Assembly: GCA_018340375.1 (NCBI GenBank)
Contig: JAFFJZ010000004.1
Coordinates: forward strand, 26,634,001 to 26,698,000
Source of the DNA: Gonatopus flavifemur
Lineage: Eukaryota > Arthropoda > Insecta > Hymenoptera > Dryinidae
Direction of reading: 5' to 3'
DNA length: 64,000 bases
Positions 32,983 to 53,577 of the stretch are shown in pieces. A model generated the notes under the pieces. The model did not search any database. It saw only the letters and a program-made list of their open reading frames with translations, and had not been told where the DNA came from. Every line of letters begins with the position of its first letter. Position 1 is the first letter of the stretch. A program made the translations under genes and the position numbers.

Positions 32983-34276
32983 CGAGGGTGGATTGATAAG
33001 TTTCCGGCCTGACCAAGAGATGGCGCCACTAGGCCTACCTTGAGGTGGCGTTCTATAGTACCATCCTTAGATAGCTTGTAGCTATAGTTTCAGTCCGATC
33101 GCCATGTTAGTTTAGTTTTGAGAGCACGCTGACCAAGACGCCTCTGTGTTTTTCGTAAAAATGGAAAAGCTGGAAAATCGTGCTGTCATCAAATACTTTT
33201 ATTTGAAGGGGTTAACGCCGAAGGAAATTAAAAAAGAGATGGACTCAACACTGGGGACATCCTCCCCATCATATTCAACCATTAAGCAGTGGGTTTCCGA
33301 GTTTAAAAAGGGTCGTGTGAGCACCTCTGATGAGCCTCGCTCAGGACGCCCCATTGAGGTCACAACTCCAGATATGATCGAGAAAATCCATCAAATAGTG
33401 CTGAAAGATCGCAGATTAAAAGTTCGTGAGATAGCTGAGACCTGTAAGATGTCATATGAACGTGTACAAAATATTTTGCACCAACATTTGTATATGGAAA
33501 AGCTCTGTGCAAGATGGGTGCCGCGTTTGCTAACAGTCGACCAAAAATTGATTCGAAAGAACATTTCTACCGCCAATTTGGCGTTGTATAAGCGTAAACC
33601 AAGCGAATTTTTGCGTCGATTCGTAACCATTGACGAAACTTGGGTCCACCACTACACTTTTGAAACCAAAGAACAGTCTAAACAGTGGATTGGACCAGGG
33701 GAACCAACTCCAAAGAAGGCAAAAACAATTTTTTCGGCGAACAAGGTTATGGCTACTGTTTTTTGGGATGCAAGAGGTATTATATACATTGATTACCTTG
33801 AAAAGGGTAAAACTATCACTGGTCAATACTACGCAGACTTATTGCAACGTTTGAGCCACGAAGTGAAAATTAAACGACCTCATCTGGCGAAGAAAAAAAT
33901 CTTGTTTCATCACGATAACGCACCAGCGCACACGTCAATCGTTGCGATGGCTAAAATCAACGATCTGAAGTTTGAATTAATGCCGCACCCTCCCTACTCT
34001 CCAGACCTAGCCCCGAGTGACTATTATCTGTTTCCTAACCTCAAAAAATGGCTTGGCGGTAAGAGATTTGCGGACAATGAAGAAGTAATCGAAGCTGTAA
34101 ATGGGTATTTTGAGGAGCTTGACGAATCAGTCTATAGAGATGGCATTACTAGACTAGAACACCGCCATGAGAAATGTATCAGCCTTGGAGGAGATTATGT
34201 TGAGAAATAAGAAAAAAAAAATTCTTAAAAACGTTGTTTTTCTTGGTCAGGCCGGACACTTATCAATCCACCCTCG
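32983..34276 (+). mobile_element. complete mariner element, 1294 bp, intact
   Basis: Inverted ends CGAGGGTGGATTGATAAGT (32983) and ACTTATCAATCCACCCTCG (to 34276), with the inner GGCC(T)GACCAAGA part also conserved, are flanked by TA (32981-32982 and 34277-34278). The element interrupts the hAT transposase frame. With both ends, the target duplication and a full-length transposase frame it is the youngest-looking insertion of the window. Confidence 0.95.
33161..34210 (+). CDS. mariner transposase, full length (349 aa)
   Basis: Cut-and-paste transposase that binds the terminal repeats and cuts and joins DNA at TA sites. I chose ATG 33161 (MEKLENRAVIKYFYLKGLTP); an in-frame upstream GTG at 33146 is less likely. 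Domains: two helix-turn-helix motifs (residues about 5-110, with RSGRPIEVTTPDMIEKI as linker), WVPRLLTVDQK before the catalytic core, then the DD34D triad: Asp in FVTIDETWVHHY (about residue 155), Asp in HHDNAPAHTS (about 250) and Asp in PPYSPDLAPSDYYLF with 34 residues between the last two. The length equals that usual for mariners (about 345-350). No stop or frameshift, so the protein is probably functional. Transcription would need a promoter in the 5' terminal region or host read-through. Confidence 0.95.
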   Translation: MEKLENRAVIKYFYLKGLTPKEIKKEMDSTLGTSSPSYSTIKQWVSEFKKGRVSTSDEPRSGRPIEVTTPDMIEKIHQIVLKDRRLKVREIAETCKMSYERVQNILHQHLYMEKLCARWVPRLLTVDQKLIRKNISTANLALYKRKPSEFLRRFVTIDETWVHHYTFETKEQSKQWIGPGEPTPKKAKTIFSANKVMATVFWDARGIIYIDYLEKGKTITGQYYADLLQRLSHEVKIKRPHLAKKKILFHHDNAPAHTSIVAMAKINDLKFELMPHPPYSPDLAPSDYYLFPNLKKWLGGKRFADNEEVIEAVNGYFEELDESVYRDGITRLEHRHEKCISLGGDYVEK

Positions 34277-40689: not shown

Positions 40690-41800
40690 AATTCACGCTT
40701 GCTAAATAAATACATTCGAAAATAAAATTAAATACGAACGAGATTTGGGTAAATTGAACGGGTTGAAACATTCTTTTTTCCTCGGATTGGACATTTTGCT
40801 ATGCACTTTCAAAGAACTCGGTTGTTTTGAAAATAATTTACACACTTATTACGAGATAAAACAACACCAAGAAACTTCAAGATATATATCGAATTGATGT
40901 TGGTTCAAGAACAAGCAACGGTCTTGGAATTAAAAGTAGCGTACTGTGGTCGAATGATATTTGTTTACATTGTATCAAAACACTGACGAGTGAATTGATA
41001 TTATAGCAAGATATGATCAACGTGCGCTTGAAGCACCTTCATGAATTAAGCGCAAAATTTGAATCTTATAATTCATTTATTTTCGTTAATTTTTTATAAC
41101 ATCAATTCATATTATGAATGAATAAAGATTTGATATCGTACCCGTTCTAATTCTTATGCTCTGTTGTAAGAAAAACTCATTTTCTTTTGTTGATTAATAA
41201 TTTTTTTTCTTTCGTTTTCATAATTCATGAATTAAACGCGAAATTTGAATTTTATTTATTCATTTATTTTCGTTAATTTTCAATAGCACTTGGAAAAATG
41301 TCGACCACCTTTTTTTTAAGACTGTTTTTTATGTAAAATTTTCCGTTCTTTTTAGAAAAAATACAAAAATTGAAAAAAAATTTGGGAAACAACGTGAGAA
41401 ATGCATTTGAAATTTTTTTTTTGGTTTTTGAAGCTTCCAAACATATTTGACATGAAAACTGATATTTCTTCCATAATTTGCGAAGAATTTCACGTCGAAA
41501 CTGATATTTGGAAATTTCAAAAAAAATCAATTCAAAGCCGAGATATAACGATGAAAAAAACAAAAAATGAGGAATGACAAACTTCATTAGCTTGGCACAG
41601 ATCAGCGTGCGGATGACATTGGGGGTTTAGGGCTCAAGACCTCTATTTTGGATGAGTACTTTGAGAGAAGGATTTTGGAAAAGATCTGAGAGGGCCGGAC
41701 CTGGAAGTGTTCCATGTGACCGTGAAATGTCTTATATACTGCGTACCCATATACGTCATCTCATATCATAGTTATATGCTATGTACCGTACGTATATGTA
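40690..41800. other. no gene recognised
   Basis: AT-rich sequence with long A and T runs (41290-41580). The 104-codon minus frame at 41587-41273 is Phe/Lys-rich and expected from such composition. 41045-41130 and 41220-41280 share a direct repeat (ATTAAGCGCAAAATTTGAAT and ATTAAACGCGAAATTTGAAT). Confidence 0.4.
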
Positions 41801-41803
41801 TAC

Positions 41804-41907
41804 CCAAGTAGCAAGCGAATGTTGTATATATACTATGCACATACGTAGTATATCTGAATATACCATGAACGTACATAGTATATATACAACGTTCGCTTGC
41901 TACTGGG
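41804..41907. repeat. 104 bp hairpin element, CCCAAGTAGCAAGCGAA ends
   Basis: CCCAAGTAGCAAGCGAATG and its inverse CGTTCGCTTGCTACTGGGG enclose TATATATACTATG-type palindromes, giving a near-perfect foldback immediately left of the DD41D element. Probably a very short MITE. Related ends occur at 26421-26528. Confidence 0.6.
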
Positions 41908-41916
41908 GTATATGTA

Positions 41917-43948
41917 CAGGGTGGGGCATTTAAAGTGTCGCGGGCGTTTTCTCCAAAAATAAAATGAGATACGAGAAAATTTTTCGGACAAAAATTGTAG
42001 GGTATCGAGGGGGACATCCGATGGTGGCCTTGGCTTTGACCTCAGATCTCATCTTCAAGGGCATTCTGAGGTCAACTCTTGTTTTTTGAATAGCATCTCA
42101 TATTTTTTACTGCAGATTTGAATTCTAGGTCAAAAACCAAGAAACTTTTGTCTGAACCATTCTCCTGAAATCCGCAAAGATGGCGCTCTAATCGATATTG
42201 TTCCAAACTGAATCTGACATTAGAATAACTCGAAAACGAAGGGTCTTGGAGGAGAATGTTTCGGACAAATGTTGTCTGATTCCAAGGGGGACCCCTTGAA
42301 CTGAAACGGAGGTGATGGGGTATAACAGACAAAACACAACACATTTCAATCGTCTACATCCCTTGGATAATTTTAATGCAGTAGATGCTCAAAATGATGG
42401 CCTTCGACTTCAATACACATTTCAAAACGTTTTACAAAAGATTGCTGAACTCGTGCTAAAATATCTTCATTGATGCTCGCGCATGCATTGATGATTCGTT
42501 GACGCATATTCTCAGGTGTAGTCGGTGCTTGTTGATAAACTGTATCTTTTATGTATCCCCATAAAAAAAAATCTGGAGAAGTAAGATCCGGAGAACGGGC
42601 AGACCAATGAACTGGTCCACGACGTCCTATCCATCGTCCAGGATAATCTCTGTCCAATATTTCTCGAGCTGTGACTGCATAATGGGATGGACAACCATCG
42701 TGTTGATACCACATATTCAATCGTTCCTGAATAGGTATGTCTTCAAGTAATGTTGGAAGTACTTGATCTAAGAAATGTCTATACTTCTCTCCATTTAGCG
42801 TATCTGCAATGAAGTACGGTCCAATTACTCGAGATCGAAACATACCACACCAAACATTCACAGCCCATTGTCTTTGATGCTCTACTTGACGTAACCATCT
42901 TGGATTTTCTGTCGTCCAGTAATGCATATTATGTCGATTTACTTGACCATGATTGGTGAACGTCGACTCATCAGAAAATAATATGCTGATGAAGTTGTTA
43001 TTGTGCATTCGCGCTAGACCCCATCGACAAAACTGTACACGATTTTCGAAATCATCACCGTGAAGGTCTTGATGCAAACAAATGTGATACGGATGGAATT
43101 TGTGACGTTTCAGTATTCGAAGAACACTTCTTCGAGAAATTCCCGAATGGAGTTCAATTTCACGAGAGCTCACGTGTGGATTATTGGCTACTGCAGCTAG
43201 TACATTAACTTCCGCATTTTCTCCGCTAACAGTTCTCATTCGATGTCGTTTTTCCCTTGTAACACTTCCCGTTTCTGAGAATAATTTTCTAATGCGTTGA
43301 AAATACCTAATGGATGGCGTTGTTCTTTCAGGAAATCGTTCTGCATACAAGTCATATGCTTGTCTGGGGTTCTTATGCACTTCACCGTAAATGTAGATGA
43401 TATCGATCTTTTCAGAAACCGTGTATCGGATATCCATGATTTTCAATTTGTCATAAACCAAGTAATAATCAAATGTAACTGACAAACTGACTTTCAAAAT
43501 CGTGAATTTTCACTGAACCCCGTCGTTTGTTTACATCGCGTGAGCTCTGAATGGTGGTAATTTAGACGATTGAAATGTGTTGTGTATTGACAACTTTTGT
43601 ACGAAACATTCTTTTGCAAGACCCTTCGTTTTCGAGTTATTCGAATGTCAGATTCAAAATGGAACAATATCGATTAGAGCGCCATTTTTGCGGATTTCAG
43701 GAAAATGGTTCAGACAAAAGTTTCTTGGTTTTTGACCTAGAATCCAAATCTGCAGTAAAAAATATGAGATGCTATTTAAAAAACAAGAGTTGATCTCAGA
43801 ATGCCCTTGAAGATGAGATTTGAGGTCAAAGCCAAGGCCACCATCGAATGTCCCCCTCGGTACCCTACAACTTTTGTCCGAAAAATTTTCTCGTATCTCA
43901 CTTTATTTTTGGGAAAAACGCCCGCGACACTTTAAATGCCCCACCCTG
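41917..43948 (-). mobile_element. complete DD41D Tc1/mariner-superfamily element, 2032 bp
   Basis: Ends CAGGGTGGGGCATTTAAAG (41917) and CTTTAAATGCCCCACCCTG (to 43948) are the outer part of unusually long inverted repeats (about 41917-42352 and 43562-43948), flanked by TA (41915-41916, 43949-43950). The left repeat carries an extra ~50 bp. Between them lies one intact transposase gene. Confidence 0.92.
42373..43437 (-). CDS. DD41D transposase, intact (354 aa; 374 from an upstream ATG)
   Basis: DDE/D transposase of the IS630/Tc1/mariner superfamily. The family start is probably MDIRYTVSEKIDIIYIYGEV at 43437; the frame also extends 20 codons upstream to an ATG at 43497. Residues 1-110 form two HTH motifs (AYDLYAERFPERTTPSIRYF; VSSREIELHSGISRRSVLRI). 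The catalytic Asp residues are in ILFSDESTFTNHG, WYQHDGCPSHYA and RSPDLTSPDFFLWGYIKD. By my count 41 residues separate the second and third, hence DD41D, as reported for rosa/Visitor-type elements. WTTENPRWLRQVEHQ and WCGMFRSRVIGPYF are conserved core motifs. No stops or shifts; with complete terminal repeats this element could be autonomous. Confidence 0.9.
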   Translation of the reverse strand: MDIRYTVSEKIDIIYIYGEVHKNPRQAYDLYAERFPERTTPSIRYFQRIRKLFSETGSVTREKRHRMRTVSGENAEVNVLAAVANNPHVSSREIELHSGISRRSVLRILKRHKFHPYHICLHQDLHGDDFENRVQFCRWGLARMHNNNFISILFSDESTFTNHGQVNRHNMHYWTTENPRWLRQVEHQRQWAVNVWCGMFRSRVIGPYFIADTLNGEKYRHFLDQVLPTLLEDIPIQERLNMWYQHDGCPSHYAVTAREILDRDYPGRWIGRRGPVHWSARSPDLTSPDFFLWGYIKDTVYQQAPTTPENMRQRIINACASINEDILARVQQSFVKRFEMCIEVEGHHFEHLLH

Positions 43949-43950
43949 TA

Positions 43951-44560
43951 TATACACATATATATGTACGGTATATACATGTAACCTCTTTACTACATTT
44001 TCCATGACTTTTTTGTCCTTGCTTATTAATAAGAACACTATATATACATATATGTAATCTTTTGTTAGAATTCATACTGTACACCGTGCGTGTATACGTA
44101 AATGCACATATACGTATAAATACTATATATACATGTAACATTCTTGTTACATTTCCACAATTTTTTTTTTCTTTTTCATTCATGAAAATATTACCTACAT
44201 ATATGTATCTTTAATTAGAGTTATGTGCCGTATATGTATTGTGCGTATGTATATATATGTATATGCACATATCTATGCACTATATATATATAGATATCTT
44301 AATCTGAAATATAATAATTAATGAACCTTTCAATAATTATACGTATATGTATCCATGGATCATTCTTGAAAGGAAAAATACTATGTCCAGATCACCCGTT
44401 ATGTGCATAAACACTTCAAATTTAGTAAACATCTGGGTGACAGTTTCGGAAGGAAACTTCTTCGCACAGGGGGAAAACCACTCATAAAAAATTATGACGA
44501 GAACGAAGGTCTGTGTCGTTTCGCTACCTAACTGCAACGCGAACCAACACACACCGTAAC
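43951..44560. other. TATACATG-rich simple sequence
   Basis: AT-rich stretch dominated by TATATACATG and GTATATGTA motifs; TGTAACATTCTTGTTACA is a short palindrome near 44135. Frames on the minus strand (44183-43932, 44552-44337) are low-complexity or unsupported. No gene seen up to 45.1 kb. Confidence 0.5.
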
Positions 44561-45151
44561 CCTATGTAGAAAAAACGTGGCCTACGTGCATTTTCAAGAA
44601 TGACCATTGATACAAATATAATTTTTCTTATTTAATTAAATGTACTTATTTTATTCAAATAATTAGAAGACATACATGCGTATCTATTAGATGTCATCTA
44701 CAATCAATGTTTGAAATTATTAAATACTATCAAAGCATATTGAAACCTTACATTTTAGATTAGAGAGATTTGGTTGGTCAATTAAATAATCCTATAGATT
44801 CGGATTTCAATTCAAACATTGACTGTAGTTCTTTCATATGACAAACCAAAATCGCTGACCTTTTTCAACATTCTGTCAATCATAAACATTATCAACCCTC
44901 TCCTTCTATACTTCAATAATATTATAAGACTAAAATTATTACAATTTCTCATGAACAATCAGACGAACTACAAAGAATATTGGTTAATTTTAATATTTTC
45001 GATTTCAATATTGTGTTTCTCTTACATCTTGGAAGAATCATACGTAAGAAGGTACGTGTGAAAAAAATCTCAAGTGCATAGAAAGAAAGGAAATCTATTT
45101 CTTTCTTTCTCAAATAATAGGACTCCCACTTCAGGTCTACTGTCAGAATAG

Positions 45152-45191
45152 TATATAAGGACCGGAATGCATGCCCCCTGACACATTCAGT
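45152..45191 (+). promoter_or_regulatory. TATA box and TCAGTT initiator upstream of hairpin array
   Basis: TATATAAG at 45152 and ATTCAGTTTT with the A at 45189. Possible splice donors follow (CAAG|GTAAAA near 45258; ACA|GTAAGT near 45317). The spacing of 37 nt is slightly long but equal to that of the minus-strand promoter at 50.4 kb, which also has ATTCAGTTT. Confidence 0.55.
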
Positions 45192-45380
45192 TTTGAAAGT
45201 TAGAACCAAATCATTAATTCTCCGAATTTGATCTTCAACACTCATTCATTTTTCAAGGTAAAATTACAACATTCAATTCACAACTAAAATCAGTTCACTT
45301 CGATCACTATTTTTAACAGTAAGTATCACTAATAATATTGAACCCCAATTCATGATATCGAAGATCCTGCCTTCCCTTCC

Positions 45381-46284
45381 GAAATACTGTGCATAGCCAC
45401 TATATTTCAACCTCCTTTGGGATAATGTGCATAGTCACTAATCCCGATTCATTTCCCAACTTCTCTTGGTTCCTGTGGAGATACTGTGCTCAGTCGCTAT
45501 ATCTCTATTCCTCTTTAGAGATCATTTGCAACAGCCACTAATCTCTAAAAACCCTAACCAGTTTCTAATCAATTCTAATTTTTCAATTCGAGATAATGTG
45601 CATAGCCACTATATCTCGAATCTTTCTTTAATTCATTTTCAACTCTATAGAGATGATGTGCAACAGCCACTAATCTCTTAAACCTTTCTAATCTTTTCTA
45701 ATCAATTCTAATTTTTCAATTCGAGATAATGTGCATAGCCACTATATCTCGAATCTTTCTTCAATTCATTTTCAACTCTACAGAGATGATGCGCAACAGC
45801 CACTAATCTCTAAAACTTTTCTCATCTTTTCTAATCAATTTTGAATTTTCAATTTGAGATAATGCGCATAGCCACTATATCTCGAATCTTTCTTTAATTC
45901 ATTTTCAACGCTATAGAGATCATGTGCAACAGCCACTAATCTCTAAAATCCCTAACCAGTTTCTAATCAATTCTAAATTTTCAATTTGAGATAATGCGCA
46001 TAGCCACTATATCTCGAATCTTTCTCTAATTCATTTTCAACTCTATAGAGATGATGTGCAACAGCCACTGATCTCTAAAACTTTTCTAATCTTTTCTAAT
46101 CAATTCTAAATTTTCAATTTGAGATAATGTGCATAGCCACTATATCTCGAATTCTCCTATAATTCATTTTCACCTCTATAGAGATGATGTGCAACAGCCA
46201 CCAATCTCTAGAACTTTTCTAATCTTTTCTAATCAATTCTAATTTTCCAATTCGAGATAATGTGCATAGCCACTATATCTCAAA
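45381..46284 (+). ncRNA. array of 15 short hairpins with near-constant loop
   Basis: Fifteen 27-34 nt inverted repeats follow each other every ~55-60 bp. Two alternating types exist: TTCGAGATA + loop + TATCTCGAA, and TAGAGAT + loop + ATCTCTA. The loop is nearly invariant: (A/G)TGTGCATAGCCACTA in one, GATGTGCAACAGCCACTA in the other. The first two hairpins have different but still paired stems (GAAATA/TATTTC at 45381-45408; GGGAT/ATCCC at 45419-45445), and several TTTGAGATA/TATCTCGAA copies keep pairing through G-U. Co-variation of stems with conservation of loops is the mark of selection on RNA (or cruciform DNA) structure. Pairs of hairpins form a ~115 bp higher-order repeat. The array would lie in the first intron of, or at the start of, a transcript from the 45.15 kb promoter. 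Frames across it are not conserved as protein. Confidence 0.7.
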
Positions 46285-46615
46285 TTCTTTTAGAAAAATG
46301 ACATCCCACGCATCCTCACTCGAAAACCTAATCCTTCCTCTTTGATATCCGGAATAACAACTAGTTCACTGTCACGTCCAGAACCTTTGAAGGTCCTTGA
46401 CGCTACTGCGGGGTTAAAGGATCGTAGAATTCGGAATTTGATTTCTACAACCCTTTGTTTATAGAGTTCCCCGTTTTAGTGATAATGCAAGGACCGAGGA
46501 TTTAGAGATTCTGAGACGATTATTATGTATATATATATGTGTGAGGTTGTTGAATTTTCACATTTCTAGCATCGAATGATTCATTGGTTCTTGTATTTGA
46601 ATTTGAATCCCGCAG

Positions 46616-47525
46616 GTCAATCTATTTGCGTAGATCGCAATCCGCAGAATTGATTGGTGCAATTGATTTAGGGTGACAACGGTGTGTCCCCTGTGTGTAT
46701 ACTGACCTAATGTTGTGATAGAAATGTCATAACATGTGTGTGTACACTAACCTAATGTTATGTTAGAAATGTCAAAACATTTCTGTGTACGTGTGTGCAT
46801 ATGAAAGTGTAGGGTAAGTATTTCAAATATTAAGGTGAGTAATTTGAATTAAGATTTAATTAATAGATCCAAATCTGTATTTGTTCCCTTTCTATTCAGA
46901 TGTGAAGAGATAAGGAACAAATGTGGGTACTTCTACGAAGAAGAAAACTTAGAGATGGGAAAAAGTCTTCTTCGATGGAGTTCTGGGTAGGAATCAGTTC
47001 CAAGGTAAGTCTTAATGTAATATATACATCTCAACTCCTTATTTCAATAGAATCGCATAAATGAATTACATTCACTTATTGGGTTCTTTAGGGTATTGTA
47101 TATTTTAATACTTGTTGTAAAAAAGAGGGGTAGTCGATATACTTGTTCTGTATATTTTGTATGTTTTAACTTTAATTCTAATTACTATTGGGTTTTTCAG
47201 TTGAGGTAAGATGTACTTTTCTTGACTCGTCCCCTGCTACCTTTGGAATTGTACCAGCGAGTAGCAATAAGAGTCATCAAGGGGGTATCATCGAACCAGG
47301 TACGTGTGAGTGTATTATGCTAGTATGAATAAATTAGTTATTTTAGTTGTAGAAAGTTTCATATGTTATGAGACTTTTGTATTGTGTTATAATATAATGA
47401 TTGTTTCAGTTTCCTGGAGAATTACTTCATCGACTGACTTCGGCTCTGCCTTCTGCCCTTAGCAACTTGAAGAACATCCAGCGTCACCAAGTTCTTGGGT
47501 AATAAAATGTGCAATCTCCAGATAG
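46616..47525 (+). ncRNA. chain of well-formed exons, largely non-coding transcript
   Basis: Four exons bounded by good sites: 46616-46813 (CCCGCAG / AGG|GTAAGT), 46900-47004 (TTCTATTCAG / CAAG|GTAAGT), 47201-47299 (GGTTTTTCAG / CCAG|GTACGT), 47410-47525 (TTGTTTCAG / ATAG|GTAAAA), and a next acceptor near 47601 (TTTTTTAG). Exon 2 contains an ATG at 46921 and 28 open codons (MWVLLRRRKLRDGKKSSSME), closing two codons into exon 3. A second frame is open across the exon 3/4 joint for 60 codons (TRPLLPLELYQRVAIRVIKG, FPGELLHRLTSALPSALSNL) but has a stop before it and no ATG. So the transcript either encodes small peptides or is a long non-coding RNA running into the repeat array. Confidence 0.5.
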
Positions 47526-47626
47526 GTAAAAACAGTATCAATTATAATATCACATGTAACCTTTCCCCGTAAGAAAGTTCTAATGTGAATTAATTTTTTA
47601 GGCATTGGATTCCATGACGGTGGGAT

Positions 47627-47796
47627 TTATGTATCGCCAACCAGGGAGGGTCTCTCTCTCTCTCGCTGAGAAGGTTTGGATAGAGCCGTTGGATTCCAAT
47701 CTCCTTCCTCCTTGAAGAGTTCAATTGGAACGTCAACTCTTCCTTCTGCCTTGACAGGATGTTTTACGGGTAGTGTATTGATATCAATCAATTCAT
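47627..47796 (-). other. antisense open exon candidate
   Basis: After a minus-strand acceptor-like CATTTGTATAG an open frame encodes about 56 residues (YVDELIDINTLPVKHPVKAE, VDVPIELFKEEGDWNPTALS, then RERERPSLVGDT and stop). Its composition is more protein-like than the plus-strand frame over the same bases (SMTVGFMYRQPGRVSLSLAE). If real, the element has overlapping genes on both strands here. The (GA)n-like RERER part is simple sequence. No promoter or start codon found. Confidence 0.25.
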
Positions 47797-47939
47797 CTAC
47801 ATACCTATACAAATGGAAATTAGGGCTTCTAGTTCAGTGTAGATGCATGTAAAAGGTGACATTCTTATGTGTTAAAAGTTGAGTGAAGTGAAATTTTTCA
47901 ATAGCGATTCTCTTAAGTCGTTACAGTAGATTCAGTGTT

Positions 47940-49070
47940 CTGGTATAGTGTGTTATCCTTTTGTGCTTTCTTACAATCTTTTATGTTATTAATGATCAAT
48001 GTGAGAGGTTTTAAAAATTGAAGTGGTGAAAAATGTCAGAAAGTGCTTTTGAGGTTGCGACGACAAAAAAATAAAGTAGTGTGATTTCAAGTTCAGTGAA
48101 TTAGGTGTGTGTAGTGTTTGTAAGTGGTTTTGTTAAGCCTGTAGGGCTTAGACAAAGTTGTCTACCAAATTACAGACAATTCGAAGTGACAGTTTCGTCA
48201 CTGAGAACAGTTTAAATTGTAATTTCTCAAAAGACGAGAACATTAATTTTCAAGAATTGTGTTTTACGGATGTGAAGTGGTTGCAATTGGCTTGGTTAAG
48301 ACTGTGGCATCGAGATAGACTATTATACTGAATTATAGACAATTCGAAGTGACAGTTTCGTCACTGAGAACAGTTTAAATCGTAATTTCTCAAAAGACGA
48401 GAACTTTAGTTTTCAAGTGTTGTGTTCTACGGATGTGTGGTGTTTAGAATTGATTTGGTTAAGACTGTGGCATCGAGATAGACTATTATACTGACTTATA
48501 GACAATTCGAAGGGACAGTTTTGTCACTGAGTGCATTTTAAATTGAGATTTTGCAAAAGACGAGAACTTCAATTTTCAAGTGTTGTGTTCTACGGATGTG
48601 TGGTGTTTAGAATTGATTTGGTTGAGACTGTGATATCAAAGTGAACTATTATACCAATTTACAGACAATTCGAAGTGACAGTTTCGTCACCGAGTACATT
48701 TTAAATTGTGATTTTACACTAGACGAGAAGTTTAATTTTCAAGTTTTGTGTTCTACGGATGTGTAGTGTTTTATAGTGATTTATTCTGTATCGTGGAGTG
48801 ATGTTAAGTGTAGTTGTGGAATTTGAACAAATTTGAAGTGACAGAACTGTTCAGAAGTTCAGTTTTATGTCTGCGGTTATTGAAAAACCGTGAACTTTTT
48901 CCTACAAGTTCAGTGTCTTAGTGGAGTGATGCGTTATAATTGATTCGAACTGGTTAATAGTGATATTTTCAAGTAGTTTGAAAGATTCGAATGAACTAGA
49001 AATGATAGTTGTATTATGAGATGCTTTATAAGGTGCAGAAACAGATAACCGTGAACTAATTTCTGTGTTT
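47940..49070 (+). repeat. tandem array 1 of ~163 bp unit
   Basis: About seven units with starts near 48012, 48175, 48339, 48501, 48664, 48827 and 48990. The four central units are well conserved (ACAATTCGAAGTGACAG..., CTGTGGCATCGAGATAGAC, GTTCTACGGATGTG). Each has a small hairpin AAGTGACAGTTTCGTCACT; a divergent unit has CGGTTATTGAAAAACCG near 48875. No conserved reading frame. An acceptor (GTGTTTTTCAG at about 49075) follows directly. Confidence 0.8.
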
Positions 49071-49299
49071 TTCAGGTTCTCGTGCAGCGATGAGAGGTAT
49101 TTCTGGATTAGGTATTCGTGAAGGAATGGTGTACTGATTTTTGGTTTCCCTGTGTGGAGGGTGATACCTCGTCTTAAGGGTAAATTTTATTATCAATTAA
49201 TTTTCACAATATTTGGTTTGAATTATGAACATGAATATAACTAAATTTATTTTTGGTTACAGGAAGTTATGACTGTACACGCATATACATTTACATGGC

Positions 49300-50022
49300 T
49301 TATAGAGATTCTAAATTACCGTCGACTATCCTTTGACATTGAGGACAGTGATTTACATTCCCTATTAATAATTCACATGGGATTCTAGAAACACAAAAAA
49401 CTGGCGGAGATGGATGGTTCCCTATTCCCCTATACTCGGCGATCTTTTGCCTCGTCCAAGCAGGAGGAGGACGGAGAGGAGTGAATCTAAACTTCGCGAA
49501 ATTCAACGGATAATTAATCTCGCGTCGCCTAGCTTCTAATAAATCCAGATCTCTTTTGTCCCTAGTTTGATTGGTGGCGAATTTCTTCCTTGCTCTTTCC
49601 GTAGGGAAGAGGAGACCGTTCTCCTCGTTTATTTGTCGATTTCGGATCCTCTCGCAAATCATTTTGATCCGGTCCTCAACTTCCTCTAAATCGAGAGACT
49701 TTAAATTTTGCACTAAAAAAGAAGAAGGGAAAACATGAAACCTTGATTAGAATAATTACACTCGATCGCTCGATATTGATGGTAAGAGAGAATTCAAACG
49801 AAATTGAGATTGTTAAATGAAAAGTAAATTTATGCCACAAACAGATAATTCTTCACGATAACTTGGTAAGAGAGAATTCTAACGAAATTGAAATTGTTAA
49901 ATGAAAAGTAAATTTATGCCACAAAACAGATAATTCTTCACGATAACTGGTTCACTTGAAAGAGTTGATTATATCTGGGAATACTATGTAAGTATTTCAG
50001 AGTTAATCAACTCACAAGACAT
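49300..50022 (-). CDS. small cysteine-motif protein, family member 2 (139 aa, spliced)
   Basis: The main exon (49712-49300) opens after CTTCTTTTTTAG without an ATG. A 24-nt micro-exon (50039-50016) between TATATTTGCAG and GTGAGT contains ATGTCTT; joined, the frame reads MSLQNLKSLDLEEVEDRIKM. A non-coding first exon (about 50385-50166, free of ATG, ending CCA|GTAAGT) and a TATA/initiator promoter complete a consistent gene. The product is charged and helical (1-80), then FAKFRFTPLRPPPAWTRQKI, and at the C-terminus CVSRIPCELLIGNVNHCPQC, a possible four-cysteine metal site. Layout and splice phase match the 14.1 and 52.9 kb genes. The 3' end overlaps plus-strand exons from the opposite direction. 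Function unknown. Confidence 0.62.
49783..49951. repeat. 85 bp tandem duplication in intron 2
   Basis: Two nearly identical copies of a segment beginning GGTAAGAGAGAATTC and ending TTCACGATAAC lie side by side in the intron of the minus-strand gene. One base in an A run and a few substitutions differ, so it is recent. Confidence 0.8.
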
Positions 50023-50380
50023 AATTCGTAATAAATCCACTGCAAATATAGATTCGCTCGAATTTGTTACGAATCTCGTTTTGATTTCTGCGATACACTT
50101 TGGGCGCTGATAAAACAAGAACACACACGATCGCGGAAAATTTTACTTTCAATAGAAAATACTTACTGGTAATTATATTTTAAATTTTTGTTGAAAAGAA
50201 GAAAAAACAAAACTGTTGTTGAACACACGAAAATTGAAACTAGAGGTTTAAATTTTACGAATACTTTCAATAGTATTGTACGATTATTTTCGAAGGGTTG
50301 TGATAGTCTTGAAAACTATGGAGTGTTTCAAGATTTTCACAGGAGGTGGTGGTTTTAGTCGCGATAGAAAATCTGAACTG

Positions 50381-50422
50381 AAACTGAATTTGAACTGTCC
50401 AGCCTTTTGGGCCTATATTTAA
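50381..50422 (-). promoter_or_regulatory. promoter of the 49.3 kb gene
   Basis: On the minus strand TTAAATATAGG (50422-50412) precedes AATTCAGTTTCAGTTCAG (initiator A near 50385). The transcript from here has no ATG before the first donor at about 50165. Confidence 0.55.
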
Positions 50423-50869
50423 GGGCTGTCCCCCTCTCCGATTCTCCTTCCCGATGGACGCTCCCTATTCTTGTTTTTCCAGAGTTTCTCCGTCTTTTCG
50501 TTTAGGGAAAGGGATACGGGTTCTCCAAGTTTCGATTATCGATACGCGCATCCCTGTGTTCGTTGGAAATTGTGTGCATGGGTTGCTATGTGTAAGAGAG
50601 AGATAGGGATATCCATTTCTTACACGTAGGACTTATTTCTATTTCTATAATTATTGGTTTGAATTATTGAATTTCAGTGTTGTTGTTATTCCTAACGCTT
50701 ATCACTTATGATTATAGTTAATTACATTTGTTGTTGTTTCTCTATAGAGGTTAGGGGGACCAATTCGGCAATATTTAATTTCCATGTTTAATAGAAAAAT
50801 AATTGGCGGTTTGTATGTATATACACGTGTGTATATAATATAACATAATAGTATTTTCGGCAGGTAGTA

Positions 50870-52040
50870 ATTCTAGAGTGACAATTTGTGAAGAAACTGT
50901 ATTTTCATTCTGCGATTCTATGAGTCGTTGAGCTAAATTTTCCAGGTTTTCATAGTTTTAATATTATAAAGTAGTTCCAGTGGTTTTATTTGGTTGTGTT
51001 GAGTGCTTATAACGTGTGTGTCAAGTGTTAGAAGATTTGAGGTGGTACCTTACGAAGAAAGTGAATTTTTGTTCTGCGACTTAGTGAAAACCGCAAACTT
51101 ATTTTGGTGTTTTTATATTCTAGTGCAGTGAATCATCTTTCAGTGGGATTATTTGTTCATTTAGAGTAAGTGTGACTTCCACATCAAATCCTAAAAGGTT
51201 TGAAGTGGAAGTTTTGAAGAAAACTATATTTTTAATCTACGACTCAATGAATTGCAATTTGAATTTGACGTATCCGCATAATTTCTATTGTGGAGAATTT
51301 TCCTAATAGTCTCATTAGACTGTGTAATATGATGGCAGAGTGTATTTAGAATTTTAAAGGATTTGAGTTGGTAGATTTTTTGAAAACTCTATTTTGTATC
51401 TGCGACTCTCAGAGTCGTTTAGCTTGTTTTTAAAGTTTTGGTTATTTTGATATCGTGGAATAGTTTTAATGGTCCTATTCCACTGTTTAATATAATTATG
51501 GTTTATAAATACATTCTCAAAAGATTTGAGGTGGTAGAACTTTGTAAACTCTATTTTGTATCTGCGACTCGCAGAGTCGCTTAGGTTGTCTTTAGAGTTT
51601 TGGTTATATTGGTATCGTGGAATAGTTCTAATGGTCCTATTCCACTGTTTAATATAATTATGGTTTATAAATACATTCTCAAAAGATTTGAGGTGGTGGA
51701 TTTCTAGAGATTATGTATTTTGTGGTTGCGACTCTTAGAATTGCTATAATAATTTTGTAATTTTCGTAGTCTTTATATTGGAAATTGTTTCTAATGTTTT
51801 GATTTGAACATATATGGCAATTGTACCTTGTGCTTCAAATATTAAAATATTTGAAGTGCAAGTTTTATTTGAATGTGAAATTTAACTCTGCGATTCTATG
51901 AGTCGCAACCTTTTATTTGTACATTTTTGCAACTTGCGTGTCATAAGAGATTTTCAATGGTTATATTCAGTTAATTGAACGAATTTTCGATGTAAGTTTG
52001 TGCATTTTCTTTGTCTTTGAAAATAATTTTTTTTTTTTTT
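50870..52040 (+). repeat. tandem array 2 of ~163 bp unit
   Basis: Seven units starting near 50876, 51034, 51198, 51361, 51524, 51686 and 51849. Each starts GATTTGAGGTGGTAG-like, continues with a three-base-loop hairpin (TGCGACTC-GCA-GAGTCGC, TGCGACTC-TCA-GAGTCG, TGCGATTC-TAT-GAGTCGCA) and, in the best units, GTGGAATAGTTCTAATGGTCCTATTCCAC. Units 4 and 5 are almost identical; the others have diverged. The period equals that of array 1 and the AAGTG(A/G) unit start is shared, so both arrays derive from one unit. Confidence 0.8.
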
Positions 52041-52378
52041 AAATATTTCCTGTAAAAAAAAAAAGGGCAGATAAATGCAGGGTTATTTCATAGTGTTTGA
52101 AGTTTCTCCTGCACATCTGTTTTATTGTTTGGTTTTATGACAAGGACTTGGTATTTCTTTAGTTTCTTCCATCGTTGTCATTTCCATTGTGAGGACAGAT
52201 TTCAAACCTCGATTACTTTACTGTTGATTTTTAATTTCATTTGGTGTTGCTGTACTTTTATTACGGTTTTATCCTTTTTGAGTATCAAAGGAGGTTAGAC
52301 TGTAATAAGGTCGAGTTTTAATTGATGACCGTAAGATTTTCTATCGGGCTGCAATCGAGTATTGAAATCTTATTCTCT

Positions 52379-52573
52379 TTAGGGTTTGGCAACGCTGGGT
52401 CTGACCATTTGTTTCCTTGTGTATACTCTCCTTTTTTTTATATGCGTTTTCACCATAGGATTCTCGACGCCTGCTCGACAACGGATTTCTTTATCGAGGG
52501 TGGTCAGAGTATCCTTGGTTTGTTTGAAATAGATGAAAAAAAAAAGGTTATTCATAGAGATCTCTGGAAACAA
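52379..52573 (-). other. basic open frame, possible exon
   Basis: A minus frame encodes about 50 residues with a basic end (LTTLDKEIRCRAGVENPMVK, HIKKRRVYTRKQMVRPSVAK) before a stop. Over the same bases the plus strand has a 93-codon frame. The basic composition fits a nucleic-acid-binding tail, but there is no start or splice evidence strong enough to decide. Confidence 0.25.
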
Positions 52574-52732
52574 ACAGATGTAGGAAATACCAGTCTCTTG
52601 TAATTTGTTGGGTTTCGGTGCGAGGAACTATTTCGTATCTCTTCGTTTCATGTGAAAATATGCGTACATATTTTCAGTCATTATGTTCCTTTAAACCATA
52701 GAGAGGAGAAAAGAGAGGGAAGAGAGAAAAGA

Positions 52733-52734
<2 letters not shown>

Positions 52735-52770
<36 letters not shown>
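52735..52770. repeat. (TA)n microsatellite
   Basis: A pure TA run preceded by GA-rich sequence (AGAGAGGAGAAAAGAGAGGG), upstream of the last gene of the 7.2 kb element. Confidence 0.9.
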
Positions 52771-52772
<2 letters not shown>

Positions 52773-52894
52773 TAAAAGACATGATTACGTCACATCACTA
52801 ACTATCATTGTCTGGAAATCACCCCTTTTTTCCTAATCACCACCGCGTGCTTATCAATCCAACCTCCATTCCAAATTTCCGAATTCGTTTTCAG

Positions 52895-53366
52895 TGTCGC
52901 GATCAATTATCAAAATCCTAAAGGAAGCTGAAATAGAAAAGAACAGGATCCTAAAAAAACAAAAACTAATCAATACCCAGGGGAAAAGGTTAGGGGAGAC
53001 GTTTCATATAGAACAGAAAAAGGTATCAAGAGGCTCACGAAAAAATTCAAGCTCCTCTTGGAGGAACAGAAGGCAGCCCTCTCAGCCCTCCCCAGCCAAC
53101 GTGTCCGAATTAATATAAATACATCTAATCAATCGAATAAGACTCTTAAAACGTCCGATAGACCACAGTTACCCACGAGGTGTAGAATATGTATCGAAAC
53201 TAAAAGAGAATTCTTGAATTGTGTCAATTGTAAAGATCACGGTCGATTGTATAGTGAATTAAGTGAGACTGAAATGAATAACGTTAAATTCTCTGTTAAT
53301 GAAAAGAAAGAAATCCTGTCGATCAAATATTTCGGGGATTCATATCACAATATATCAGAATTGTAA
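52895..53366 (+). CDS. small cysteine-motif protein, family member 3, frameshifted
   Basis: The exon opens after GAATTCGTTTTCAG with TG-TCG-CGA, the same phase as the 14.1 and 49.3 kb genes; an upstream exon ending in A would give MSRSIIKILKEAEIEKNRIL. The first frame continues to 53118; the C-terminal half is in the -1 frame (open to 53366): LTKKFKLLLEEQKAALSALP, then RCRICIETKREFLNCVNCKD and FSVNEKKEILSIKYFGDSYH. The switch must occur near CAGAAAAAGG at about 53018, an A5 run, so either a single-base insertion or translational frameshifting. The Cys pattern CxxC-x11-CxxC suggests a metal-binding site. AATAAA follows at about 53390. Confidence 0.5.
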
Positions 53367-53577
53367 CCCTTTATATGTATAGTTATTGATAAATAAATTG
53401 ACATTGTATTATACATCCTTGATCTTCATGAATTCAACCTTCATCTCACTTTCCTTTCCTCTTAGTCCATGCATAAAAAACCCTCTATTTTAGTCAGAAA
53501 GGGAATTTCATAAATTTCAATTCTGATTTATGTCAACGGAAAGGTATTCCGTTCAGACGGAATCCCTGGACGTGACA

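Follow-up and report, generated by a model that had tools for sequence, protein, structure and literature searches.

A hairpin array in the LTR of an env-bearing Ty3/gypsy-type element of Gonatopus flavifemur lies within a predicted intron

The window analysed here is the whole 64,000-nucleotide stretch corresponding to positions 26634001-26698000 of its contig, in a genome assembly of 636 Mb. It contains an LTR of an env-bearing Ty3/gypsy-type element with an array of fifteen hairpins, located downstream of a TATA box and between predicted splice sites. Numbers such as L002 denote loci; L alone denotes the LTR-encoded protein. A slash in a splice site marks the junction.

41730-53577, plus strand: LTR of the element, family A1 (alignment to L002-L008, 5' limit from L003, 3' end CTGGACGTGACA)
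45152-45159, plus strand: TATA box TATATAAG (read from the sequence; also in L002, L009/L010, L036 and family C)
45187-45191, plus strand: initiator-like TCAGT, the presumed start site (read from the sequence; recurs in the copies read)
45189-45318, plus strand: predicted exon 1, without ATG
45319-45327, plus strand: predicted splice donor A/GTAAGTATC (read from the sequence)
45381-45408, plus strand: hairpin 1, stem GAAATA/TATTTC
45417-45447, plus strand: hairpin 2, stem core GGGAT/ATCCC
45476-45507, plus strand: hairpin 3, loop CTCAGT, inner helix GTG/CGC
45514-45549, plus strand: hairpin 4, type B
45587-45620, plus strand: hairpin 5, type A
45649-45678, plus strand: hairpin 6, type B
45720-45753, plus strand: hairpin 7, type A
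45782-45811, plus strand: hairpin 8, type B
45853-45886, plus strand: hairpin 9, type A
45914-45945, plus strand: hairpin 10, type B
45985-46018, plus strand: hairpin 11, type A
46046-46077, plus strand: hairpin 12, type B
46118-46151, plus strand: hairpin 13, type A
46179-46210, plus strand: hairpin 14, type B
46251-46284, plus strand: hairpin 15, type A
46370-52794, minus strand: 6.4-kb LTR nested in antisense in the intron, belonging to a different family within the same Gag lineage (absent from L002-L007; copies and pairs genome-wide; termini)
52895-53366, plus strand: predicted exon 2, the L frame after acceptor TTTTCAG/TG, broken in the window copy (longer open frames in other copies)
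53392-53397, plus strand: AATAAA, a possible polyadenylation signal

All fifteen tandem hairpins of the original prediction were confirmed at 45381-46284 of the plus strand by reading of the sequence and by pattern search. Nine carry the loop CATAGCC (one of them as CTCAGTCGC) and six carry CAACAGCC. Type B hairpins (CAACAGCC) and type A hairpins (CATAGCC) alternate strictly through copies 4-15 with a 133-bp unit, as had been proposed for most of the array, and TRF reports a 133-bp unit repeated 5.9 times at 45511-46290. Copies 1-3 are irregularly spaced and lie outside the alternation. The outer stem of each hairpin measures about 5-10 pairs and is separated by a small internal loop from an inner GUG/CAC helix, disrupted in some copies, which is capped by an apical loop with a nearly invariant YAG. 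The loop had been described as almost invariant; this holds within a family, but because the inner helix occupies part of that "loop", the apical loop itself measures 6-7 nt. With up to three mismatches allowed, the two loop patterns gave 11 and 7 matches in the window against chance means of 1.89 and 0.74, and 8 of the 11 and 6 of the 7 are inside the array. Folding of the 911-nt array beat 20 dinucleotide shuffles on both strands (z of -4.99 for plus and -5.66 for minus), so that folding energy cannot pick the strand. The motifs of the promoter predicted just upstream of the array, the TATA box TATATAAG at 45152 and TCAGT at 45187, are present and recur in the copies read. No Rfam family matched the window at the gathering score, the exact hairpin patterns had no match in viral contigs, and keyword searches of the open literature returned no description of such an array.

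We performed a search of the same genome using the 911-nt array. This analysis revealed at least 62 matches at about 40 separate places, including the copy in the window, seven full-length ones at 90-91% identity and distant ones at 65-71%. Other matches, at 81-89% identity, include same-strand pairs, five of which are 17.1-17.5 kb apart and one 13.4 kb apart. The array of family C, a distant family, gave at least 47 matches when used as the query. The array sits in an LTR of about 3.1 kb with the termini TGTAACATC...CTGGACGTGACA, i.e. TGTAAC...GTGACA (TG..CA), and solo LTRs are flanked by 4-bp target duplications (CTCT for L002, GCTA for L007). Paired LTRs are 99.5% identical in the C218 pair L009/L010 and about 98% identical in L013/L014 and L015/L016. 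The primer binding site TGGCGCAGTCGGTAGGA is found 8 nt past the end of the 5' LTR, and the polypurine tract AAAAAAGGGGGGAGG precedes the TGTAAC of the 3' LTR (L010, L016). The LTRs proper of C218 are preceded at both ends by about 220 nt of rearranged sequence.

A gag frame of 621 aa in the internal region encodes eight CX2CX4HX4C knuckles. Gag, protease, RT-RNaseH and integrase follow the Ty3/gypsy order, as defined by Pfam on pieces of L011 and L012, with the protease match below the cut-off (19.2 of 20.7 bits). After pol, a 121-aa piece of env matches PF24664 (E 1.9e-26), the Monjiviricetes (chuvirus-type) fusion glycoprotein. The host element is an env-bearing Ty3/gypsy-type (Metaviridae) endogenous retrovirus with a chuvirus-like env. 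One study reports Gypsy fragments next to such glycoproteins in Hymenoptera and other orders, with no clear capture by Gypsy elements (PMC10084718). Troyka elements have CG..CG termini and 3-bp duplications and are without env (PMC12440569); the present element does not fit this group, having TG..CA termini, 4-bp duplications and an env. Two small frames are located between pol and env in L012 (3248-3850 and 4211-4753), one of which has a weak zinc-ribbon match below the cut-off. The multi-knuckle Gag lineage is large in this genome, with at least 101 matches listed at identities from 100% down to about 41%; 71 of 682 first-look candidates were scored. Among the leaders of nine further Gag families, that of L027 harbors a shared-loop array and that of L029 repeats with long hairpins, and the remaining seven showed nothing recognisable; some of these leaders may stop short of the relevant part of the LTR. 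L039 has no array by pattern.

The window LTR is without about its first 40 nt, contains three insertions and has a broken L frame. Its head holds a small palindromic insertion (about 41803-41910; element at 41799-41912) and a DUF4817-type transposon (41908-43957), which has inverted repeats of 369 bp and an open frame of 378 aa. The nested antisense LTR, from a family of the same lineage with a Gag of about 45% identity, is bordered by the target duplication TCAC at 46366-46369 and 52795-52798. The 163-bp repeats downstream of the array are part of this nested LTR; they hold small hairpins, e.g. GCGACTC-TGC-GAGTCGC, outside its own intron. On the minus strand, a split-AUG frame of 137 aa is predicted for the nested LTR, with donor ACCA/GTAAGTATT at 50166, acceptor AG/TG at 49712 and an ORF at 49300-49712; the stretch 49300-49743 of that strand has no protein relatives at E≤0.001. 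Because the window is without a second array, its copy of the element is best interpreted as a solo LTR that has suffered damage. Several transposon genes are present in the window, one of them, by eye, a long open mariner-like transposase frame of 362 aa (33122-34210, plus strand). The genome contains no exact TTAGG telomere repeat of six units.

The stems of the window vary at few positions (GAGATA, GAAATA, GGGAT; outer pair C-G or A-U). Since most copies are recent duplicates with few variable positions, about three independent compensatory changes are found within the window. The co-varying stems of the original prediction are seen between families, but within the window are represented by just these changes. 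In homologous arrays, compensatory stem changes were found between families A1-E and in family F. For families A1, A2, C, D and E, covariation was assessed on 28 hand-picked A-register units, including 6 of the 15 window hairpins and excluding type B units, whose register is shifted by one. In this set, 83.6% of cells are paired versus 78.0% in shuffled sets (0/500 shuffles), 7 pairs are changed on both sides versus 4.4 (4/500), 22 cells show double changes versus 9.5 (0/500), and the covariation score is 0.184 versus 0.100 (0/500), with slid controls at or below 0.093. Further pair types showed no excess (14 versus 13.7; 294/500).

The sister family F (L027 and L036, with 13 and 15 hairpins) shares the same array plan and a Gag that is 69% identical, but its loop, ACUCGCG (pattern A[CT][AT]CG[CT]G), differs from that of families A and C. 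Its stems comprise several unrelated sequences that are still complementary, a few of them weakly. For 11 distinct units out of 28 pattern matches, 87.6% of cells are paired versus 60.1 ± 3.2% in shuffled sets (0/500), 32 cells show double changes versus 11.6 (0/500), 9 pairs are changed versus 6.3 (11/500), and the covariation score is 0.711 versus 0.228 (0/500), with slid controls at or below 0.208. Further pair types were not clearly above the shuffles (46/500). Shuffling ignores the relatedness of the units, which the slid controls and the unrelated stems of family F answer in part. It is well supported that stem pairing in the hairpins has been maintained by evolution, most clearly in family F.

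The strand was considered using wobble pairs. On the plus strand of the window, G.U pairs are present in the outer stems of hairpins 9, 11 and 13 and a C.A mismatch in that of hairpin 15, and C.A mismatches appear in the inner helix of hairpins 8, 9 and 11. A census of units started from 408 raw matches, of which 61 with more than two loop mismatches were dropped, leaving 347, or 163 unique units; it replaced an earlier fuzzy-pattern census that recovered 8 of the 15 window units. Over the core stem positions L2-L6 of the unique units, we counted 770 Watson-Crick pairs, 12 G.U, 18 A.C and 15 others on the plus strand, so that wobble lends no support to a plus-strand RNA. The outer position L7 shows 19 G.U versus 35 A.C, and the inner helix 23 G.U versus 7 A.C, 17 of these G.U pairs being GTG/CGC, mostly of the copy-3 type. 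These counts are blurred by the many copies that are solo or decayed LTRs. A G-U-compatible stem had been claimed; G.U pairs do occur in some hairpins, but C.A also occurs and the plus strand is not singled out.

The loops had been expected to drift more slowly than the spacers, and they are nearly invariant within a family, but between families A and C the spacers drift little faster than the hairpins. One A unit and one C unit are identical at 48 of 65 hairpin positions and 39 of 68 spacer positions, gaps being scored as differences, a modest contrast in spacers of low complexity. Array size is labile, from about 9 to more than 30 units. Very long arrays include one of 4.7 kb in a family C copy (C395:127382-132130) and one with 30 loops by pattern in L008.

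In families A and C, about 60 nt separate the upstream donor A/GTAAGT from the first hairpin, and in family F the first hairpin follows the donor directly; the acceptor lies about 180 nt of LTR sequence past the last hairpin, excluding the nested LTR. All fifteen hairpins are thus within the predicted intron, since the donor precedes and the acceptor follows the array, and would therefore mark unspliced RNA. The predicted junction, ...A+TG..., forms the AUG of a basic LTR-encoded protein of about 155 aa, referred to as L. The predicted exon 1 of the window lacks an ATG, as do the 135 nt preceding the donor of L017-L019 and the 260 nt preceding that of L036; in L002 and L009, two ATGs occur in the equivalent region, 5' of the initiator. 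The acceptor search covered the AG/TG form and kept junctions that give ATG. As this form was preset, the evidence for a split AUG is the shared place and frame in several families.

We surveyed 28 sequences, i.e. 27 loci and the window. A strict donor near the array start was found in 17, all of which (17/17) yield an ATG-started frame of 39-173 aa; 8 have no strict donor and 3 no array by pattern. Re-inspection of those 8 and L008 revealed A/GTAAGT or A/GTGAGT correctly placed in 7, with a changed donor in L005 and none there in L020. Among the same nine sequences, 7 have a homologous acceptor, with frames of 30-155 aa. The split AUG is also predicted in family E, and family G (L029) has A/GTGAGT...AG/TG with a 178-aa frame. 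By eye, L038 has the acceptor and a weaker GTTAGT donor. The sequences give good support to a selected hairpin array within a retroelement LTR that forms a predicted intron, and we infer that splicing occurs at the predicted sites. A study of springer-clade Drosophila endogenous retroviruses reports that splicing joins an AU dinucleotide to the env exon and so completes its start codon (PMC12992720). The arrangement predicted here is similar in that an insect endogenous retrovirus would rely on splicing to complete a start codon, but the codon is divided as A/UG, the protein is LTR-encoded and is not env, and the intron is the hairpin array.

L measures 155 aa in 11 of 17 readings (families A and F) and 148-173 aa in family C, and its frame is broken in L003, L006, L010 and the window. 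The protein is basic (37 K+R versus 20 D+E in L002) and, in families A, C and F, ends in a part with a CxxC...CxxC pattern. A dN/dS of 0.13 between A1 and A2 (11 and 19 changes) indicates purifying selection on L in this one comparison; the comparisons among A2, C and F are saturated at synonymous sites. An AlphaFold2 model built from five sequences (mean pLDDT 76.3, pTM 0.40) shows two long helices and a small C-terminal portion, with a linker that is disordered. A search with this model found no solved fold at E≤0.001, no Pfam family reached its cut-off for L, and the window stretch 52932-53363 (plus strand) has no protein relatives at E≤0.001.

Families A and C share the loop GUGC..YAG.CAC, and family F has ACUCGCG. 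The L proteins are 51% identical between A and C, 37% between A and F and 39% between C and F; the corresponding values for the Gag knuckle region are 76%, 80% and 73%, with A represented by A2. Loop kind may therefore track L identity and not the Gag knuckle region, an association over three families (A, C and F) that leans weakly to L as the reader of the hairpins; the lean is weak because L is physically linked to the array. The partial L of family D is 60% identical to C, 47% to A and 37% to F. That of family E is 42% identical to C, 33% to A and 34% to F, and stands against L as the reader: it is equally close to A and F, yet the E loop is of the A type.

The favoured mechanism, to which we give an even chance, is that the array is both the body of an intron in the LTR and a multivalent RNA-binding site for a protein of the element, most likely L, in a Rev/RRE-like circuit. 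Transcription would begin at the TATA/initiator site of the LTR. Splicing from donor to acceptor would remove the whole array, and the A/TG junction would build the start codon of L. The unspliced RNA, genomic and gag-coding, would carry, close to its 5' end, about 15 hairpins with a single kind of loop, and the spliced L mRNA would lose them at that end. The hairpins would offer many sites to L or, less probably, to the eight-knuckle Gag, and L would act back on the unspliced RNA through splicing restraint, export or sorting. In this scheme the working form of the hairpins is presumably RNA rather than DNA, and both the role of L as reader and the effect of its binding are conjectural. Against the circuit, every RNA would also end in an array, supplied by the 3' LTR, if polyadenylation takes place at 53392, and L038 and the nested LTR keep a predicted intron without a recognised array.

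In Rev/RRE, Rex/RxRE, Rem/RmRE and Rec/RcRE, a structured element is kept in unspliced RNA and a small basic protein is made from spliced RNA; in some of these circuits, the response element is located in the LTR. The same two features are predicted here, and it is through predicted splice sites that the RNA structure is confined to the intron of a spliced regulatory protein. The present array differs in consisting of about 15 tandem hairpins with one loop kind, and its intron splits the start codon of the candidate reader.

A possible though unlikely alternative is that the array is a packaging signal, bound by the Gag nucleocapsid so that unspliced genomic RNA is packed. Retroviral psi comprises stem-loops after the leader splice donor and is recognised by a Gag with zinc knuckles, and the array likewise follows the leader donor in an element with a zinc-knuckle Gag; it differs from psi in being long and homogenised, with a family-specific loop and a Gag with eight knuckles. 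A many-site RNA would suit the Gags of A2, C and F, each of which has eight CX2CX4HX4C knuckles. Seven Gag relatives were found, and the three that were read also have multiple knuckles; the position after the donor and the absence from spliced 5' ends fit. However, the knuckle region is closer between A2 and F, whose loops differ (80%), than between A2 and C, whose loop is common (76%), and an array in the 3' LTR would occur in all RNAs.

It is improbable that a host RNA-binding protein binds the hairpins and controls leader splicing, export or translation without an element-encoded reader. The YAG conserved in the loops of families A-E and the intronic placement would agree with such a factor, but the replacement of the loop by ACUCGCG in family F, in the same genome, fits a co-evolving protein of the element better than one fixed host factor.

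More remote is a promoter-proximal array of DNA sites for a DNA-binding protein. The gypsy Su(Hw) insulator of Drosophila has 12 sites with a TGCATA core; like the hairpins of the present array, they are arranged in tandem close to the 5' end in a Ty3/gypsy element of an insect. The many copies near the promoter, the wobble without an RNA strand bias and the TGCATA in type A loops are consistent with a DNA element. In a comparison of this core, TGCATA was nevertheless absent from the hairpins of type B and of families C and F. Moreover, the insulator is a conserved DNA site, whereas stem sequence here is free if paired: the stems of family F share no sequence yet remain complementary, which a double-strand binding site would not need. 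Sireviruses harbor 8-32 palindromic repeats per element, many in the LTR; these plant Ty1/copia repeats have a CGG-CCG core, are located upstream of the TATA box and are read as DNA activators (PMC2829016). The array shares with them multiple palindromic repeats in an LTR, but its hairpin core is not CGG-CCG, the coding order is Ty3/gypsy, and it is downstream of the TATA box.

Neutral satellite expansion inside the LTR, with palindromes as a by-product, would suit the labile copy number (about 9 to more than 30 units) and the 4.7-kb array at C395, but is very hard to reconcile with the covariation in the 28-unit set and in family F, and with the retention in F of the same plan with a different loop. 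A unique lncRNA of the host, resembling Xist or roX in its several repeat domains, to which the promoter, the hairpin array, the downstream 163-bp repeats and five plus-strand GTTNTACG boxes at 47761-48757 might have pointed, is ruled out by the genome search, which places the array at about 40 sites as LTR sequence, and by the assignment of 46370-52794, with the repeats and boxes, to a separate antisense LTR. Boxes of this roX-like type number 13 in the window versus 4.29 expected, and were dropped as a candidate, five being in the nested LTR and four of those in its 163-bp repeats. roX2 has several stem-loops joined by linkers in a host dosage-compensation RNA (PMC6451107); the array has a similar layout but is retroelement LTR sequence. 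A transcript co-opted from the window LTR alone may exist. The original prediction had proposed a structured nuclear RNA acting as a binding platform. The array does look like a multivalent platform, with its conserved loop, compensating stems and upstream promoter, but it is not a single host RNA, since it belongs to the LTR of an env-bearing retroelement, between conserved splice sites.

A striking hairpin array in raw sequence can be a predicted retroelement intron and not a host noncoding RNA. If the favoured circuit is correct, insect endogenous retroviruses would possess an unusual version of a Rev/RRE- or psi-like element, built of countable modules with family-specific loops, and RNA-protein co-evolution would therefore be testable among families of one genome. 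The array would also give a concrete answer to how such elements might distinguish unspliced from spliced RNA, and LTR-encoded proteins would exist that gag/pol/env searches would miss. We tentatively suggest, while holding it rather doubtful, that a lineage of insect env-bearing Ty3/gypsy retroviruses may have evolved its own post-transcriptional switch: an intron of equal-loop hairpins, whose splicing would build the start codon of its reader and whose loop "password" varies between families of one genome.
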